Shown in pieces: positions 12,200 through 34,354 of a stretch of DNA of 64,000 nucleotides. Location of the stretch: the NCBI RefSeq assembly GCF_001684965.1, contig NZ_MAYG01000001.1, forward strand, positions 1,364,001-1,428,000, read 5' to 3'. A program made the position numbers and the translations under genes. Positions within the stretch are counted from its first letter, which is position 1. Every line of letters begins with the position of its first letter. The stretch is from Chryseobacterium arthrosphaerae. Its GTDB lineage: Bacteria > Bacteroidota > Bacteroidia > Flavobacteriales > Weeksellaceae. The notes beneath the pieces are model-generated. The model saw only the letters and a program-made list of their open reading frames with translations, ran no database searches and was not told the DNA's origin.

Positions 12200-12484
12200 A
12201 TGAAAAACTTAAAAAAATTAGACAGAAACGAGCTAAAAACTATTTCAGGTGAAGGACTTCTTGATCCAATCGGAGGATTGATCGGAGGACTAGGTGGAGT
12301 AGTTGGCGGTGTATTAGGTGGTGTAGGAACAATCGTTGGCGGTGTAGTTGGCGGTGTAGGTTCTACAGTAGGTGGAGTAGTTGGCGGTGTAGGTACCGTT
12401 GTAGGAAACGCTCTTTGCCAGACACAGTGTGTAATCAACGGTGTGATCCACATCAGATTACTGGAGTGTGGTACTACTTGCTAG
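12200..12484 (+). CDS. Bacteriocin-like peptide with Gly/Val-zipper core
   Basis: A 94-residue peptide. The first ~18 residues (MKNLKKLDRNELKTISGEG) match the leader shared by many small Chryseobacterium bacteriocin-like proteins, with a double-glycine-like end (GEG in place of GG). The core (about 23-70) is nearly pure Gly, Val and Ile in repeated GGVVGGVG units, a membrane-seeking glycine zipper. The last 25 residues hold four cysteines in two pairs (CQTQC near the core and a terminal ECGTTC), which could form disulfides. No maturation peptidase, transporter or immunity gene is recognisable next to it. Toxic, signalling or structural function is unknown. Confidence 0.75.
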   Translation: MKNLKKLDRNELKTISGEGLLDPIGGLIGGLGGVVGGVLGGVGTIVGGVVGGVGSTVGGVVGGVGTVVGNALCQTQCVINGVIHIRLLECGTTC

Positions 12485-19462: not shown

Positions 19463-19705
19463 CTATTCATAATTCATTTCCTTTTCTAAAATAATCTGAT
19501 TCCTCCGAACCGTCACCAGCACTTTATCTCCCGGTTCAAAACCACTATCCAGCAGCCACTTCCCTGCCAACCGGATTTCCGGGAAGAAAACCAGCCTTCT
19601 GTATGCTCTTCCAAACACTTTATGGGAAACCGTAAGGTTCCTGATGGACACTATTTTATATTTGCCCCGGATAACTATTTCTTTCATTTTGTTGTTTTTC
19701 ATCAA
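19463..19705 (-). CDS. SymE-like toxin (AbrB-superfamily fold)
   Basis: An 80-residue basic protein whose second half, FFPEIRLAGKWLLDSGFEPG followed by DKVLVTVRRNQIILEKE, matches the SymE toxin family. In Escherichia coli SymE is an SOS-induced inhibitor whose mRNA is silenced by the antisense RNA SymR. The start could be any of three nearby ATGs (19705, 19702, 19687). An XRE regulator gene diverges from it across 130 bp, so a protein repressor may act here in place of or along with antisense RNA. No antisense promoter could be confirmed. Confidence 0.7.
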   Translation of the reverse strand: MMKNNKMKEIVIRGKYKIVSIRNLTVSHKVFGRAYRRLVFFPEIRLAGKWLLDSGFEPGDKVLVTVRRNQIILEKEMNYE

Positions 19706-19766
19706 GCAAGAAATATCCGGCAGGCTAAACCAGTTATAAAGAGGATATTTTATGCTAAAAAGCAGC

Positions 19767-19793
19767 TATTTTAGAAGATAATTTATTTTAGAA
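19767..19793. promoter_or_regulatory. Direct repeats in the symE-like/XRE divergent spacer
   Basis: Two identical 10-mers TATTTTAGAA start at 19767 and 19784, 17 bp apart (close to two helical turns). They are candidate sites for the XRE protein encoded at 19836. Confidence 0.35.
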
Positions 19794-19822: not shown

Positions 19823-19830
19823 TATATTTG
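19823..19830 (+). promoter_or_regulatory. TATATTTG -7 promoter box of the XRE gene
   Basis: It matches the Bacteroidota TAnnTTTG -7 consensus. Because it ends 5 nt before the ATG at 19836, the message would be nearly leaderless from that codon, or begin translation at the in-frame ATG at 19851. Confidence 0.45.
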
Positions 19831-19835
19831 TTATT

Positions 19836-20249
19836 ATGAGTTACACAGATATGCAAAATAAAAAAATACATCAGGGTAGAAATATAAAACGTTTCCGTGA
19901 AATGCTGGGCATCAAACAGGAAGCCTTAGCTTTTGAACTGGGTGACGACTGGAACCAGAAGAAAGTTTCTCTTTTAGAACAGAAAGAAACCGTAGAATCT
20001 GATATTCTGGCGCAGGTAGCGAAGATTTTGAAAGTGCCTGCGGAGGCGATTGAGAATTTTGATGAGGAACAGGCGGTGAATATTATTTCAAATACCGTCA
20101 ATAACAATGATAATGCTACAGGTAATTCTTTGTACAGCTATCAACCTACTTTCAATCCTATTGATAAGATGGTAGAGCTTTATGAGCGTATGCTTCAGCA
20201 GCAAAAGGAGATGATTGAGAAGTTGGAGAAGTTGTTACAACAGAAGTAA
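19836..20249 (+). CDS. XRE-family transcriptional regulator
   Basis: A 137-residue protein with an N-terminal helix-turn-helix (about 12-70: IHQGRNIKRFREMLGIKQEALAFELGDDWNQKKVSLLEQKE...ILKVPAEAI). The C-terminal helix is predicted coiled coil (MVELYERMLQQQKEMIEKLEKLLQQK), likely for oligomerisation. Codon 6 is an alternative ATG (19851). It diverges from the SymE-like toxin gene and is followed after 10 bp by the AT-rich three-gene run, so it may regulate both sides. Its own base composition is ordinary for the genome, unlike the genes after it. Confidence 0.85.
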   Translation: MSYTDMQNKKIHQGRNIKRFREMLGIKQEALAFELGDDWNQKKVSLLEQKETVESDILAQVAKILKVPAEAIENFDEEQAVNIISNTVNNNDNATGNSLYSYQPTFNPIDKMVELYERMLQQQKEMIEKLEKLLQQK

Positions 20250-20259
20250 ATATTATAAT

Positions 20260-20904
20260 ATGACACAGATAGAAAGAAATAATAGAACTGAACATCAATT
20301 CAATGCATTTATAGATCAATATCTAAGCTTTACTAGTTACCTTGGGAGTTATAAACGAAGTTTTGATATTTTACTAAATAATGTTGTAAATACCAAATCT
20401 CATGTTGATCATATTGCATATCCAATGCTATTCATTGCTAGACATTGCTTAGAGCTAGGACTAAAAGCAAACATTAGATATTTTTCAAAGTATTCAGAAA
20501 AAGATGATTATACCAATGCAGGAACACATGACCTTGAAAAACTATTCAATGCTTTTAAAATGCATGTTGAAAAAACTATTGAAAATTTAAAAAGCAAACA
20601 TAATATTGATGTTGAGGATGAAGATAAAAAATCTTTCAAACAGCTATGTGACGAGGTTGAAAAATTAAATAATACTCTTCATATTTTAGACAAAAATTCT
20701 GATGCTTTTAGATATCCAATTGATAAAAAACAAAATCCATCATTTAAAAATAATGACCGAATAAATTTAATTGATGTTGCTGAATTACTTGAGAAAAGCA
20801 TGACACTATTTCTATACACAGCTGATGTTTTTGCTAAATATACTGATTATGTGGATGGAATTGAAAGCTTTTACGAAGATATAATGAGAGAACAATACGA
20901 ATAG
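20260..20904 (+). CDS. Hypothetical helical protein, HEPN-like
   Basis: A 214-residue all-helical, Lys/Asp/Asn-rich protein. YPMLFIARHCLELGLKANIR followed by a GTHDLEKLFNAF segment is the layout seen in many HEPN domains (a helix with ARxxLELxLKA, then HDLxKL). It lacks an evident Rx4-6H catalytic motif, so it could be a non-catalytic partner. The ATG at 20260 is chosen over the upstream frame from 20215, which overlaps the XRE gene. It is the first of three AT-rich genes on the same strand and lies 10 bp after the XRE stop. Confidence 0.6.
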   Translation: MTQIERNNRTEHQFNAFIDQYLSFTSYLGSYKRSFDILLNNVVNTKSHVDHIAYPMLFIARHCLELGLKANIRYFSKYSEKDDYTNAGTHDLEKLFNAFKMHVEKTIENLKSKHNIDVEDEDKKSFKQLCDEVEKLNNTLHILDKNSDAFRYPIDKKQNPSFKNNDRINLIDVAELLEKSMTLFLYTADVFAKYTDYVDGIESFYEDIMREQYE

Positions 20905-20935
20905 ATAATAACTAAACCATGATTAAAACTAATAT

Positions 20936-22006
20936 ATGAAATTTATTGCTCGAAAAGAACCTGACTATTTTAAAGATTTTAATTTTAATAAAGATAATTA
21001 TTATAAATACTTTGAAAGAATTCGTCCAGATTTAATTAAAGAATTCAATAATAAATGCGGATATTGTGAAGGAGATTTAAATATAACCAGTTTACCACAA
21101 ATTGATAATTTTTACCCAAAAAATAAATATTCCCAAGAAGCTTTCAAATGGAATAATTTAATATTATGTTGCCAGGTTTGTAATATAGTTAAAATGGATA
21201 AGTTTCCTCTTGATGAAAACAATATGCCATTGCTTATAAATCCTTCAATAGAAGAACCGCAAGAGCATCTTACTTTAGATATTAATTCTGGATTATTAGA
21301 AGGAAAAACAGAGAAAGGGAAAATCACTATTTCTACTTTTGCCTTAAACAGACCAGAATTAGTCGAACTAAGAAGAAAATCTGGAAATCTTCAACAAATT
21401 CAATCATCATTTCCTAATTTAAATATTGAGTTAGATCGTAATAGTATTTTCATAGCTTTTAAAGATAATATCAATAAAATACTGGAGGTTACTAATAAGT
21501 TGAATGAAGATTCTTCCGGAGACAATTTGGTAGCATATCTATTATATGCAAATGTTATTACCTCTCTAGAAACTTATTTAGCTGATATTTTTATAAATAC
21601 TATCTTTCAAAATACTTTATATTTAAAAAAATTTGTGGAAACTTATCCAAAATTTAAAGGCAAAGACAATTCACAAAAATTCGAACTGTCTGAAATTTTT
21701 ATGAAATATAATAAAATTGAAGAGATTGTTACTGATGAAATTTTAGGAATAATATATCATAATCTTTCTACAGTTAATCAAATGTTTAAGGATACCTTTA
21801 CAATCAAATTCCCAAGTGATAAAGCAACTATTTATAAAGCAATTGAAATAAGACATGATATAGTTCATCGAAATGGAAAAACGAAGATTGATAAGGAAAC
21901 AAAAGCATCAACTGAACATAATATAGGAAAGAAGGAAATTCAAGAGCTGATTACTGCAACAACTAAATTTGTTAGTGAAATAAACGAACAAATGATAGAA
22001 CTATAA
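20936..22006 (+). CDS. HNH (PtuB-like) and HEPN fusion protein, putative defence nuclease
   Basis: A 356-residue protein with two parts. Residues ~35-95 resemble the HNH domain of PtuB/TIGR02646 proteins: CGYC (C41/C44), QIDNFYPK, WNNLILCCQVCN (C79/C82, N83) and K86. The usual histidine of the IEHFxPK motif is asparagine 58 here, so the DNase site may be altered. Residues ~195-350 look like a HEPN domain: LYANVITSLETYLADIF and the RNase-type motif R306-HDIV-H311 followed by RNGK. HEPN domains commonly cleave RNA in abortive defence. AT-rich; between a HEPN-like and a DUF4209 gene. Confidence 0.65.
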   Translation: MKFIARKEPDYFKDFNFNKDNYYKYFERIRPDLIKEFNNKCGYCEGDLNITSLPQIDNFYPKNKYSQEAFKWNNLILCCQVCNIVKMDKFPLDENNMPLLINPSIEEPQEHLTLDINSGLLEGKTEKGKITISTFALNRPELVELRRKSGNLQQIQSSFPNLNIELDRNSIFIAFKDNINKILEVTNKLNEDSSGDNLVAYLLYANVITSLETYLADIFINTIFQNTLYLKKFVETYPKFKGKDNSQKFELSEIFMKYNKIEEIVTDEILGIIYHNLSTVNQMFKDTFTIKFPSDKATIYKAIEIRHDIVHRNGKTKIDKETKASTEHNIGKKEIQELITATTKFVSEINEQMIEL

Positions 22007-22065
22007 ACCCAATATTCATACATGTTTATACCTTAGTTTATATTTTACAGCTATCATATTTTGAA

Positions 22066-23667
22066 ATGAAAGAATTATCAAAAGAAATCCTGAACAACAA
22101 GTATTCAAAAGAACTAAGATTTGAATTATTTAACCTTTGGAAAAACAATTCTACAGATAAACAAATAAATAGCTTATATCAGCTCATTAACTGCAACCTT
22201 ACAGAGGACAGCTTTGAAAATCTTTTAAAAGACCCTAAGTTCATTTTACCTGAAATACTTATTGACAATATTGAGATATCAGCTAGGATTAATGATATAA
22301 AATTTATTCTCGGGGACAAGGACAAATTAAACTGTATAAAAAATGCTGTAGACTCTTATATAAGAATATATGAAAGGACTGATGAATTAGATTATCTAAT
22401 TCGTTCCCTAGAATTAATACGAAAAGTAAAATCTATTTTTAAACAAGATCTTACACGATTAGAAGAGAAAATACTACAAATAATTTTTAGATTAGAATCA
22501 TCATATTATCAATTAAAACTTTTAAGTGCTTCCATCAATCTTCTAATTCTAGAAGTTTCTTCAGAAAAGCTTAAAAATTATTTTATAATTAAATTAAAAG
22601 AAAGTTTAAAAGCAAATCAGTATGACGATGCTCTTAATTATATTCAGGGATTAAATAAGTTAGGGTACTTTAATCATAATCAACTCAAAATAGAGACAGC
22701 ATTATGTTTAGAAGAAGAGGCAGATTATTATAAGTCTCAAAAAGACGAAAATACATATAACCCAAACATATTATCAACTTATCTTGATGCTCTAAAACAA
22801 ATAAAAGGAATTGTTGTAGATAAAAGTTTTAAAACTAGACTTGAAAAAAAGATAAAAAAGGAACAAAAAATAGAAGCAGAAATTATATCAATAATTGGCA
22901 CTACTGGCAAATCAAAATTAAATATTCCTCAGCTAATAAAAGAACAAAATATTGACGACTTTTATAGTGGTTTCAATTTTCTATTATGGTATCCTATTTT
23001 TAATCCTACTTTTATTAAAAAACAAGAAAACAATAATTTTTATCAACGATATTTTCCGAAAAGTGTCCACATTACAAATAAAGGAACTGTTAGTGGTATT
23101 TCAAATACAGGAGAGTTTAATTTAAACCAAGAAAGAGAACATTATAGAAATATTACAATTTCATTAATCCAAGAGATTAAATTTATAATGGATTTGGATG
23201 AACAGGTGTCCAGAGATTGGGTGGCAGAAATGATTAGTGAATGTAACAGTCCATTCATTCCAAAAGATAGAGAATATTTATTTATTGAAGGAATTTACAC
23301 TGGATTTCAAAATAATTTTATACTTGCATCACATCTCCTTATCCCTCAAATTGAAAATAGTTTGAAGTACATTATAGAAGCAAATAATAGAAATACTATC
23401 AGACTTTCAGATGATATCCAGAACGACAATACCTTAGGCGGTGTATTAAATACGGAGGAAAACGGGAAGATGCTTGATGGTATTTGTGAAAAAAACTTAT
23501 TATTAGAGTTAAACAGCTTTTTAGTAGACGGTAATAGTGTAAATTTTAGGAACAAAATATCTCATGGATTAATTTCGCCATTAGAAATAAACTATTACGG
23601 TATTTATCTTTGGTGGCTTTCCTTAAGGATGATTGTACAAACTGAAGAATATTTCAAGATAGAGTAA
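22066..23667 (+). CDS. DUF4209-domain protein with RNxxxHG motif
   Basis: A 533-residue protein. The N-terminal ~330 residues are long helices resembling solenoid repeats (paired RLE/YIRIYERT segments). The C-terminal part is DUF4209-like: HLLIPQIENSLKYIIEA, GGVLNTEENGKMLDGICEKN and FRNKISHGLIS, where R495 and H500 form the conserved RNxxxHG. That spacing equals the HEPN Rx4H motif, so a ribonuclease role is plausible but inferred. It is the third gene of an AT-rich run that also encodes an HNH-HEPN fusion. Its stop overlaps the frame of the gene remnant that follows. Confidence 0.65.
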   Translation: MKELSKEILNNKYSKELRFELFNLWKNNSTDKQINSLYQLINCNLTEDSFENLLKDPKFILPEILIDNIEISARINDIKFILGDKDKLNCIKNAVDSYIRIYERTDELDYLIRSLELIRKVKSIFKQDLTRLEEKILQIIFRLESSYYQLKLLSASINLLILEVSSEKLKNYFIIKLKESLKANQYDDALNYIQGLNKLGYFNHNQLKIETALCLEEEADYYKSQKDENTYNPNILSTYLDALKQIKGIVVDKSFKTRLEKKIKKEQKIEAEIISIIGTTGKSKLNIPQLIKEQNIDDFYSGFNFLLWYPIFNPTFIKKQENNNFYQRYFPKSVHITNKGTVSGISNTGEFNLNQEREHYRNITISLIQEIKFIMDLDEQVSRDWVAEMISECNSPFIPKDREYLFIEGIYTGFQNNFILASHLLIPQIENSLKYIIEANNRNTIRLSDDIQNDNTLGGVLNTEENGKMLDGICEKNLLLELNSFLVDGNSVNFRNKISHGLISPLEINYYGIYLWWLSLRMIVQTEEYFKIE

Positions 23668-23669
23668 GG

Positions 23670-24028
23670 ATCGATGTTAATGGCTCTTCTTGCTTAGAGC
23701 TTGATACATGGTATGGTGCTCAATTCAATAATAAAATTGATTTAATTCCTGATGGAATAGTGAAACTGCGTCCACCAATGGATGTTGAATATACATATAT
23801 TTCATCTTTCTTTAGAAATGCATATTCCTTAGATATTAAATGGACTACAAAAATAATATTAAAAGTTTTCAGGCGGAAGAATTTAAAACTGAGGAAATTA
23901 AAATAATAAAAAATAATGTTGAATATTTTCCGGTAAGATATATTCATGCAGAATATGAATATTTTGAAGATAAATATCCTAATCATATTAATGAAATACT
24001 CAAAAAACTAAGACTAAGGAACGAATAA
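23670..24028 (+). pseudogene. Frameshifted 3' remnant of an unknown gene
   Basis: Directly after the DUF4209 stop, one frame reads RIDVNGSSCLELDTWYGAQF and continues to DIKWTTK around 23852. The reading then resumes in the frame beginning at 23840 as NNIKSFQAEEFKTEEI and runs to LRLRNE and a stop at 24026. The two frames join at an A5 run (23849-23853), as expected after loss of one base from a longer A run. The 5' part appears to be missing, replaced by the DUF4209 gene. I do not recognise the family. It may be the scar of insertion of the island, or a sequencing error in one base of a short gene. Confidence 0.5.
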
Positions 24029-24079
24029 ATTTTTATTAAAAAACTTCACTTTATTGTATATTTCTTCCCAAAAACTTGC

Positions 24080-24121
24080 GTAGCTAAATAACTACATATA
24101 TATTTGTAGTCAAATAGCTAC
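24080..24121 (+). promoter_or_regulatory. ArsR-type operator dyad upstream of the ArsR-family gene
   Basis: A 42-bp imperfect palindrome centred at 24100/24101 with 17 of 21 positions symmetric: GTAGCTA...TAGCTAC outside, ACTACA...TGTAGT inside. It ends 3 bp before the ATG, so binding would block expression of the operon, as in autoregulated ArsR systems. Confidence 0.7.
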
Positions 24122-24124
24122 ACA

Positions 24125-24454
24125 ATGAATTTAAGAAGAGATGTTTTTCAGGCGATTGCAGACCCTACCAGAAGATCCATACTGATGCTGGTGGCTGCGC
24201 AATCTATGACTGCAGGAGCCATTGCTTCCAATTTCGATACCGCAAGACCTACCGTTTCCAAACATCTTCAGATCCTTACAGAATGTGAACTTTTGAGATC
24301 TGAACAGAACGGCCGTGAAATTATTTACCACCTCAATCCCAATAAAATGAAAGAAATAGCCGATTTTATAGAGCCGTTCCGCAAAATGTGGGATGAGAAA
24401 TTCAATAAGCTGGAAAGTGTGATGAAAGCCTATCAAAATATAAGTAATAAGTAA
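24125..24454 (+). CDS. ArsR-family winged-helix regulator
   Basis: A 109-residue protein: [20 protein letters not shown], then [18 protein letters not shown] as the recognition helix and [12 protein letters not shown] as the wing. No metal-binding cysteine motif (ELCVC) is present, so it belongs to the non-metal branch that often regulates an adjacent SRPBCC gene. It is followed by an SRPBCC gene, YdeI, DoxX and DUF4256 genes, probably its targets. The 42-bp dyad immediately upstream is its likely autoregulatory site. Confidence 0.9.
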
Positions 24455-32284: not shown

Positions 32285-33424
32285 TTAATCCAATACACTC
32301 CATCCTCTTCTAGGATTCGTGTTGGTAGAAACTTCCTGCTCATTAACAATGATATTTTCTTTTCTCTGACCGATATAATCAAGTTCACTCAGTTTAGCGA
32401 AAATAGTTTCAAGGCTTCTCAGCATCTGCTGAATATAAACCAATGGTTCTCCGCAGTTGTGATGGTCATAATTGGTTTCCGCTACAATAGAAAGCTGGTT
32501 CAGTAAAGTATGAGGAGCAATCTCACTCCACTCAAGGCTGTAGTTCAGCATTTCTTCCAGTTCGGCAGGAACAAGAAGCTGAGTGGAATTGTATAAATGA
32601 AGTGCCAGTCTTGCAAAAGATTCGATCAAAAATACAGGTGGCTGCCATGGCGTGATGTTTCTGAACTGGAAATACATATCTCCAAACGTATTGACCATGG
32701 TAGTACATAAGAACTTAACATTCTGTGCAAGAGCTGTGTTCTGATTCTTATGTGATGATTTCTGAATGATTTTGAACGCATACTGCTGAAGATTCCCTAT
32801 AGACTTAGCAAAACTGCTGTAATAATCTACCAGTGCCGGATGACTCTGTATAGAAGTACAGGGCGGAATAAAGTTTGAATCTACCTGGGCAATATTTGCT
32901 TTTAAATCTACCTTTCCGATAATCAGATAATTTCCTCCGGAATAGCTGCTGTTCAGAGAAGTTACAGGTAACAGTTCAATATGGTGATTCGGCTGTGCGC
33001 TTGGATGGCGTGGCGGAATTTCTTCCGGGTCAATATCTCCGAAAGGAACCTTGTCAAAAGGATTTACAGAGATTAAAATATAATATTCTCCGTCTGCCTG
33101 CTCTTCGTTCATGGATTTCGCCAAAGACTTTACGCTGATCCTTCTGTCCGTCAGTTCAATACGGTATCCTGCCATGGTCACGGCACTGCAACGCTTGATA
33201 ACAAGCTGTACATCATTGGTTGCGGTGTTATGAACATCAAAAATCGTTCGGTCTGTAAATTCAGTAGAGATTGGCAGAAGCCCGTAGTTATATGTAGTAA
33301 TCCCAAGTGAATTGGAATCTCTGATGGTATCAATTAAGAAATTATCCTGATCATTAAGGTGTCTTTGGGAAACTTTCATCCCGTCCACCCAGTTGATTGC
33401 AAAATGTTTAATAGGTTGTATCAT
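32285..33424 (-). CDS. tssK: T6SS baseplate subunit TssK
   Basis: A 379-residue TssK-like protein of the Bacteroidota (type iii) system. INWVDGMKVSQRHLNDQDNF at the N-terminus is the counterpart of the W.eGmfl.pqHFq motif, and the body alternates beta-shell blocks (YYILISVNPFDKVPFG) with a helical C-terminal region. TssK links the baseplate to the membrane complex. It is the last of three genes (tssG-tssN-tssK) on one strand, 28 bp after tssN, and ends at a terminator. Confidence 0.8.
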   Translation of the reverse strand: MIQPIKHFAINWVDGMKVSQRHLNDQDNFLIDTIRDSNSLGITTYNYGLLPISTEFTDRTIFDVHNTATNDVQLVIKRCSAVTMAGYRIELTDRRISVKSLAKSMNEEQADGEYYILISVNPFDKVPFGDIDPEEIPPRHPSAQPNHHIELLPVTSLNSSYSGGNYLIIGKVDLKANIAQVDSNFIPPCTSIQSHPALVDYYSSFAKSIGNLQQYAFKIIQKSSHKNQNTALAQNVKFLCTTMVNTFGDMYFQFRNITPWQPPVFLIESFARLALHLYNSTQLLVPAELEEMLNYSLEWSEIAPHTLLNQLSIVAETNYDHHNCGEPLVYIQQMLRSLETIFAKLSELDYIGQRKENIIVNEQEVSTNTNPRRGWSVLD

Positions 33425-33451
33425 GTTAAAATACTTTTAAAGTTTTTGTGA

Positions 33452-34354
33452 TTATGCTTTTCTTGCGACTCCCTCCTCTTCATGCTGAATGACCCTTTTA
33501 CAAATCACCACTTCATTTTCAGAAATGCTGTTTGTAGTGATGTCCTGGTCGAAATCTATATATTTTCTAAAACTGAAAAACGATTTTTTAGTATAAAAGA
33601 TCCAGTAATACGGTTCATTGCCTTCATCGGAAAGATGAATAACAGATCCCGGATTCTTGTGGTTGTAATCATCCACCACTCTGTAGAACCAGTCTCCGAA
33701 AGTAACGCCCGTTGGAAGTGTTTTTGCTTTAATTCTGAAACGGTTGGCATCTTCAAGCTTTTTGCTCAGCTCAACGTTCAAAACCATCAGTCTGTCAAAG
33801 TCTGCTCCTTCAAAATCAGGAAGCTTCTGCTCAGGAGAATATCTCCATGTTTTATAAATATCAAAAGGAATACTGATAAACTGAATATAACAGTAATAAA
33901 ATACCATAGGAACCACAAAGATCAGCATACTTGTCGCTGCCATTACCGGATTTCCCAGCCCTTTACTCATCCAGTTGAAAAGAAGGGTAAACAGGTAACC
34001 TCCCAAAACGATACACGTTACTGAAAGAATAGACTCGAACAAAATGCTCATCGCCAGAGAATCGAAATGCTTTTTGAAATATTTGTGTAATAAATTGACA
34101 TGGATAATCCCCAAAATAAGATAGATCACCTGTGCTACGAGATACCACTCCGGATTAAAAAGATTTCCGGCAAACCCAAAAACACCAGGCAGGGCCAGAC
34201 ACAAACTGCACAGAAGAACGTATACAATAATTACTTTAATCTTTATCGCAGGTTTATTCCGCCTGATTATACCGAGTATAAACATCATAATAATTGCGAT
34301 CAAAGGCATTAAGATATACCTTAAAAAAATACCTTTTACTGAAGAAATTTCCAT
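33452..34354 (-). CDS. tssN: T6SS membrane protein TssN
   Basis: A 300-residue protein with five membrane segments (about 10-28, 38-60, 68-88, 100-128, 138-160) and a soluble C-terminal domain (about 165-300). The layout and position between TssG and TssK match TssN, a protein found only in the Bacteroidota T6SS. TssN, with TssO-TssR, replaces the TssJLM membrane complex of other T6SS. Identification rests on topology and neighbours more than on sequence motifs. Confidence 0.72.
   Translation of the reverse strand: MEISSVKGIFLRYILMPLIAIIMMFILGIIRRNKPAIKIKVIIVYVLLCSLCLALPGVFGFAGNLFNPEWYLVAQVIYLILGIIHVNLLHKYFKKHFDSLAMSILFESILSVTCIVLGGYLFTLLFNWMSKGLGNPVMAATSMLIFVVPMVFYYCYIQFISIPFDIYKTWRYSPEQKLPDFEGADFDRLMVLNVELSKKLEDANRFRIKAKTLPTGVTFGDWFYRVVDDYNHKNPGSVIHLSDEGNEPYYWIFYTKKSFFSFRKYIDFDQDITTNSISENEVVICKRVIQHEEEGVARKA

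Follow-up and report, generated by a model that had tools for sequence, protein, structure and literature searches.

A probable defence slot behind a SymE/XRE gene pair in Chryseobacterium, and the AT-rich cargo it holds in C. arthrosphaerae

Three groups of described systems bear on the locus studied here. For the defence hotspots of Pseudomonas aeruginosa, homologous recombination between the flanks is suggested in the passages of that report considered here (PMC10250203). Fusions of HEPN domains to HNH/EndoVII DNases in general were reported in 2013, in a source whose excerpts also list DUF4209 as a HEPN family (PMC3710099). In Escherichia coli PtuB, substitution of H75 or N91 of the H-N-H motif abolished immunity, according to an excerpt of PMC13096335. 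We analyzed an AT-rich island within 64,000 nucleotides of Chryseobacterium arthrosphaerae (RefSeq assembly GCF_001684965.1, contig NZ_MAYG01000001.1, positions 1,364,001 to 1,428,000 of the forward strand; hereafter the window), whose three genes, here called A, B and C, had been read in a first-pass annotation as one candidate undescribed defence system. We favour the reading that the island is exchangeable cargo of a fixed Chryseobacterium defence slot, with the order SymE / XRE - cargo - ArsR, in which A, B and C lie stacked (probability about 0.72); the three are probably separate defence genes and not one three-part system.

Conserved flanks and variable cargo

The slot was surveyed with the XRE-type regulator (X) that directly precedes gene A: 108 genomes of the genus were searched, 72 gave a match, and the best XRE matches were examined. 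That the genus is Chryseobacterium also follows from the same-genus genome G238, in which a 15-kb stretch is identical to the Chryseobacterium viscerum contig of locus L082. SymE and XRE genes were found together in 24 genomes (the window, L042, L196-L215, L227 and L228), with X 78-96% identical in L042 and L196-L215 and 72% identical in L227 and L228. ArsR and then SRPBCC genes followed in 22 of the 24 loci, the stretches of L212 and L228 ending earlier. The SymE neighbour scored over the PF08845 cut-off (40.8 versus 29 bits), and the earlier naming of the two neighbours as a SymE-like toxin and an XRE regulator was borne out by the profile matches given in Table 1. Inside these flanks, identity was lost no more than 20 bp from the XRE stop codon in all 21 loci compared, and it restarted on the right mostly 55 bp before the ArsR start (position 24070), at 24046-24061 in 6 of 20 relatives and at 23956 in L042, which shares the gene D described below. 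Conserved flanks with variable cargo, as established by this comparison of genomes, mark the slot as an apparent core defence hotspot.

The cargo of 20 relatives measured 0.3-6.8 kb, and its guanine-cytosine (GC) content was under that of the flanks in all 20 stretches, the two being nearly equal in L210. A TIR protein (PDC-S35) was found in L196, Gabija GajA with a split GajB in L197, nSTAND3 proteins 69-89% identical to one another in L200, L211 and L213, an OLD/AriA-like ATPase in L201, CHAT with AbiH in L202 and CHAT alone in L215, a C5 methylase with an HSP90-type ATPase in L203, an HSP90-type ATPase with a protease-like second gene in L204, Schlafen/HerA genes in L207, a Ppl-like ATPase in L208, an ORC-like ATPase in L209, an HNH protein in L214 and DzbA in L212. 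By eye, L228 holds Vsr with a C5 methylase, L205 a lipoprotein-like gene and L210 a protease-like gene; L198 and L227 contain unassigned genes, and the slots of L199 and L206 are empty. The GajB of L197 lies in two open reading frames (ORFs; L197:4013-5664), and since it seems split, this Gabija copy may be inactive.

In the window, the variable region reaches past C, where the island of the first-pass annotation stopped, to 24069, takes in the remnant of a fourth gene (D), and has the borders of the conserved hotspot. ORF calls reproduced exactly the three co-directional, AT-rich genes of the first-pass annotation, with gaps of 10 bp between XRE and A, 31 bp between A and B, and 59 bp between B and C. 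The GC content of the region is below that of all 301 equal-sized stretches stepped across the 64 kb, whose median is 0.381; the single genes have values of 0.274 (A), 0.258 (B) and 0.270 (C).

At an E-value of 1e-5, PADLOC profiles matched 17 of the 28 cargo proteins scanned from relatives, in 12 of 16 loci (11 of 15 without L042, whose match is C); the scan omitted L210, L211, L213, L227, L228, the second gene of L204 and the 124-aa GajB piece of L197. Among ten flank genes of the window scanned as a control, one was matched, a cysteine desulfurase to DndA. The contrast between cargo and flank was clear despite the broad models in the collection.

Several points weigh against the reading of the island as cargo of a defence slot. 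PADLOC includes broad models (ATPases, methylases) and unproven PDC candidates, which inflates the counts, and the ten control genes were hand-picked and short (131-407 aa). Four of the 16 scanned loci had no PADLOC match (L198, L204, L205 and L209), nothing is present in two slots, and some contain no more than a lipoprotein-like, protease-like or unfamiliar gene. The survey left out ORFs under 80-90 aa, and because the relatives were picked as best XRE matches, the number of slots counted gives a minimum for their frequency in the genus. Both the control of the cargo by XRE and the RNase activity of its products are inferred. The slots that are empty or lack defence-like genes, together with the SymE toxin-family gene at the edge, would also suit ordinary addiction modules or else neutral islands, neither acting against phages; given the enrichment of the cargo in defence families and the purifying selection on its genes (below), we consider this very unlikely.

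A Pfam scan of 18 cargo proteins of the hotspot gave no integrase or transposase match, and ARAGORN found no tRNA gene in the window. The XRE family of the slot has multiplied in the genus, with up to 17 matches in one genome; at five other chromosomal sites (L220, L221, L223, L225 and L226) it forms tandem pairs or triplets. XRE paralogues as a general marker of defence cargo were considered and rejected: 18 of 20 further X matches lay elsewhere, in mixed surroundings and without an adjoining SymE, and the remaining two (L227 and L228) were this same slot. Three X matches outside the slot (L229, L231 and L232) adjoin what appear by eye to be type I restriction genes.

Table 1. Features of the slot and of its cargo in the window.
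Feature	Position	Strand	Basis
SymE-family gene, conserved left edge of slot	19463..19705	-	PF08845 2.3e-10; adjoins XRE in 24/24 loci including the window
Candidate operator, inverted repeat CTAAAA-N8-TTTTAG	19755..19774	.	putative function
TATATTTG box just before XRE start	19823..19830	+	identical in 22/22 loci aligned; putative promoter
X, XRE-type regulator directly before cargo	19836..20249	+	HTH_3 E 0.002 (below cut-off); PADLOC HTH_VI 4.9e-7
Variable cargo region of hotspot	20250..24069	.	homology of relatives stops and resumes at the edges; GC 0.265
Gene A, 214 aa, conserved uncharacterised protein	20260..20904	+	ORF; 91 proteins listed, own included
Gene B, 356 aa; HNH ~27-150 with Asn58 replacing catalytic His, HEPN ~200-356	20936..22006	+	profiles, homologue alignment
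HEPN motif R306-x4-H311 of B	21851..21868	+	26/26 homologues aligned
Gene C, 533 aa, DUF4209 (HEPN), PADLOC candidate PDC-S39	22066..23667	+	PF13910 1.5e-6; PDC-S39 3.5e-44
RNxxxHG motif of C, R495-x4-H500	23548..23565	+	5/5 homologues aligned
Gene D remnant	23658..24028	+	two deletions; intact 340-aa D after C in two relatives
Right border and region upstream of ArsR, conserved	24070..24124	.	identity restarts at 24070 in 13/20 relatives
ArsR-family gene, conserved right flank	24125..24454	+	94-100% identity in 21 relatives where seen

Genes A, B and C

Conserved linkage of the three genes was looked for in related genomes, and their homologues were found to occur singly, an outcome that the first-pass annotation had named as a refutation. 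Around the 11 further A loci, with 8-18 kb of DNA each (three close and eight distant homologues, one A broken and some loci at contig ends), no B or C homologue was present. Neither A nor C was seen around three full-length B loci (in Larkinella, Algoriphagus and Minicystis) or anywhere else in the three whole genomes concerned. The five C loci, one truncated where its contig ends and another with C divided between two frames, had no A or B nearby. In the same-genus genome G221, the site reads SymE, XRE, C, D and ArsR, with C 55 bp after XRE and neither A nor B. Since no second co-occurrence was seen at any of these loci and G221 has this order, the trio is no conserved unit in the DNA examined. 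The proposal that A, B and C make up one three-component defence system was therefore rejected and is in our view highly improbable; the tight same-strand spacing and the single shared low GC content favour it, but close spacing after XRE is common across the slot.

The first-pass reading of B as a PtuB-type HNH joined to a HEPN domain with R306/H311 was supported, the fusion being real. The N-terminal half is a PtuB-like HNH that matched PtuB in PADLOC (5.2e-34) and, used as a profile, the solved PtuB chains (4.3e-12), while staying under both NCBIfam cut-offs (PtuB, 57.2 of 150 bits; TIGR02646, 43.5 of 52.15 bits). The C-terminal half probably corresponds to a RiboL-PSP HEPN, PF18735 being matched by 13 of 26 homologues at E 0.01 and the window protein itself giving no match. 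Across the 26 homologues, residues R306, H307, D308, H311, R312, N313 and G314 are identical and the four zinc cysteines of the HNH are invariant. The general-base position of the HNH is Asn in 14, His in 9 and Gln in 3; in the window protein it is Asn58, which aligns with the PtuB His and whose spacing to Asn74 equals that of H75 and N91 in E. coli PtuB. With invariant HEPN residues and a varied general-base position, the HEPN site appears to be under stronger constraint than the HNH, and the loss of the general-base His suggests that the HNH probably senses or binds nucleic acid and does not cut it. A dual nuclease, with the HNH still cutting DNA or tRNA despite Asn58, would agree with the invariant zinc cysteines, with Asn74 and Asn83 kept in 25 and 21 of the 26 homologues, and with the His retained in 9; we consider it quite unlikely, as the His position is Asn or Gln in the other 17 and the H-N-H substitutions cited above abolish Septu immunity. 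Of the earlier proposal of a multi-nuclease defence or toxin system, the setting in a defence island adjoining SymE and XRE stands, and the multi-nuclease part is weakened by Asn58.

Full-length relatives of B (P0002-P0012) share 51-77% identity over 94-100% of its length, and the ratio of nonsynonymous to synonymous substitution rates (dN/dS) is ~0.09, with dS of the window pair near saturation. Some B match was found in 31 of 173 genomes of the genus, both domains being covered only by the B of the window; a first scan of genome contigs with B alone gave no match. The fusion, which had been suggested to be unlike known systems, is absent from the available passages of PMC10799925 and PMC12839542; the class of HEPN-HNH/EndoVII fusions has been known since 2013, and B may be among the fusions already described in PMC3710099, as far as its excerpts go. 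In Algoriphagus zhangzhouensis, genes for an OLD/AriA-like ATPase and a SIR2_2 protein precede the HNH-HEPN gene (L052:4983-8993), possibly as a separate three-gene defence operon.

For C, the assignment as a DUF4209 protein with RNxxxHG was upheld. It scores over the gathering threshold of PF13910 (28.6 versus 22.3 bits), the PDC-S39 profile match spans residues 46-525, and R495, N496, H500 and G501 are kept in five of five homologues. The dN/dS between the window and G221 is 0.29, and within the family a C match was found in 6 of 246 genomes, that of the window included. Intact D stands behind C in G221 and G072, the two copies being 98% identical to each other; in the window, the first of the two deletions in D starts where C ends. 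Neither Pfam nor PADLOC gave a family for D. In another genus of the family, a DUF4209 gene (L044:5612-7549) lies near a broken Septu-like ATPase/HNH pair and near transposase, AbiE-like and integrase genes, all named by eye.

Gene A had been called HEPN-like, and this was not supported. No family was matched over any curated cut-off (there were weak matches to unrelated families only), no PDB sequence was matched at E 1, PF05168 was touched by 1 of 21 homologues (E 0.046), R-x4-6-H was not conserved in the homologue alignment, and comparison of the A profile with those of B and C gave no similarity. We thus discarded A as a HEPN RNase. Selection on A is strong: its dN/dS is 0.06 for the window pair, with dS near saturation, and 0.05 for L254 versus L190, with a dS of 0.83. 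In all four close loci, a small number, nuclease genes lie just downstream of A on the same strand, and in three of the four they are immediately next: B in the window, a GmrSD_N pair with PF03235 on both genes in G210, and HsdR in G279 (4.8e-121 to solved HsdR); in G788 the next gene encodes a protein in which a membrane segment is visible by eye, and the HNH protein comes after it. The eight distant loci (22-34% identity where measured) were checked for B and C alone. A is probably an accessory protein preceding different nuclease systems. A hint is thereby given of an accessory common to unrelated nuclease systems.

These neighbours also bear on whether A and B form a functional pair, in which A would be a partner, inhibitor or antitoxin for the B RNase and C would be independent of both. 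The 31-bp gap, the joint absence of A and B from the G221 site, and the place of A ahead of nuclease genes in the four close loci, by which it may control nucleases in general, would all fit. On the other side, A is missing from all three further loci with a full-length B, the nucleases that A accompanies are unrelated, and among the other 172 genomes of the genus full-length B is found in none and A in one. We regard such a pair as possible, if unlikely.

Carriage of the cargo by phages or plasmids was considered and rejected; plasmid and phage records were compared with B and C, plasmid records also with A, and viral contigs with A and B. A gave one weak plasmid match (30% over 68%) and one distant viral contig (22%). 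For B there were 78 plasmid and 7 phage records, each with coverage under 80%, and 21 loci on viral contigs, all confined to the HEPN half. C gave 23 plasmid records, of which one spans 87% of the protein at 32% identity, and no phage record.

Control and exchange of the cargo

The TATATTTG box, which we take to be of the Bacteroidota TAnnTTTG promoter type, precedes the XRE gene, and the inverted repeat of the candidate operator lies within a ATATTTTA-rich stretch kept by most of 22 aligned loci, with several rows deviating. Of 22 occupied loci, 21 have their first cargo gene on the same strand as XRE, and in 16 it lies at most 120 bp from XRE. No TAnnTTTG box was found in the X-A, A-B or B-C gap (six occur across 4.6 kb in all), which fits a single predicted transcript. 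The linker of XRE (residues ~88-108) exists in few discrete versions, and the window and L042 share C and differ in linker; the versions seem independent of the cargo, as if shuffled by recombination.

In the favoured reading, the slot of this strain holds stacked pieces: C, of the PDC-S39 type, with the decayed D, and, between XRE and C, the genes A and B, which are absent from the equivalent site in G221. The cargo would be transcribed from the conserved XRE promoter and repressed by the XRE protein until infection. By family, B and C would be infection-activated HEPN ribonucleases that halt growth of the infected cell, their R-x4-H sites cleaving tRNA or mRNA; the zinc-bearing HNH of B, without its general-base His, would sense or bind nucleic acid, and A would act as an accessory ahead of various nuclease systems. 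Homologous recombination between the conserved flanks would be the simplest route of cassette exchange.

A further reading, which we hold to be rather unlikely, takes in more: the slot would be a regulated docking bay in which an autoregulated XRE controls any cassette, A would found a family of general restriction-nuclease regulators, and B would be an HNH-derived sensor driving a HEPN RNase. As the XRE promoter and repressor would take in any recombined cassette, new effectors would come under ready-made control.

For the slot as favoured here, XRE to ArsR would be a simple address at which exchangeable Chryseobacterium defence cargo, including several family-less genes, can be read. The slot also makes the safe regulation of newly acquired toxic defence genes testable, with one promoter and repressor and about twenty natural swaps, and the B family raises the question of what role an HNH domain has after loss of its catalytic His.

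Elsewhere in the window, two minus-strand genes at 32285-34354 presumably resemble Bacteroidota type VI secretion components, and a short glycine-rich, precursor-like peptide at 12200-12484 carries what we take to be a bacteriocin-type leader.

Comparison with known systems

C matches both the DUF4209/C6orf70 HEPN family and PDC-S39 and keeps RNxxxHG; compared with that family, it is bacterial and lies within a defence slot. A search of the open-access literature for DUF4209 with HEPN or phage returned only PMC3710099, the term PDC-S39 itself not being searched. B shares with the Septu and retron PtuB HNH (TIGR02646, NF041761) the alignment to solved PtuB chains given above, and differs in having Asn58 for the catalytic His, a fused C-terminal HEPN and scores below the NCBIfam cut-offs; no PtuA ATPase was found beside it, since neither A, B, C, XRE and SymE nor the other neighbours included in the scan matched an ATPase. 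With RiboL-PSP-HEPN (PF18735), B shares R-x4-H in a probable C-terminal HEPN; the fusion in the excerpts of PMC3710099 is to endoRNase L-PSP, whereas that in B is to a PtuB-like HNH. No open-access paper joining RiboL-PSP, HEPN and HNH was found.

The slot as a whole resembles cDHS1 and cDHS2 of P. aeruginosa, as far as the considered passages of PMC10250203 describe them, in its fixed core flanks, hypervariable defence cargo and lower GC content. In cDHS1 symE is common, as SymE stands at the edge here, and neither those hotspots nor this slot is tied to a single type of mobile element (PMC10250203, same passages). The slot is unlike them in being far smaller (0.3-6.8 kb), in belonging to Bacteroidota, and in having a conserved XRE gene directly ahead of the cargo, most of which shares the strand of that gene. 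By analogy, the closest known kind is the P. aeruginosa core defence hotspot.

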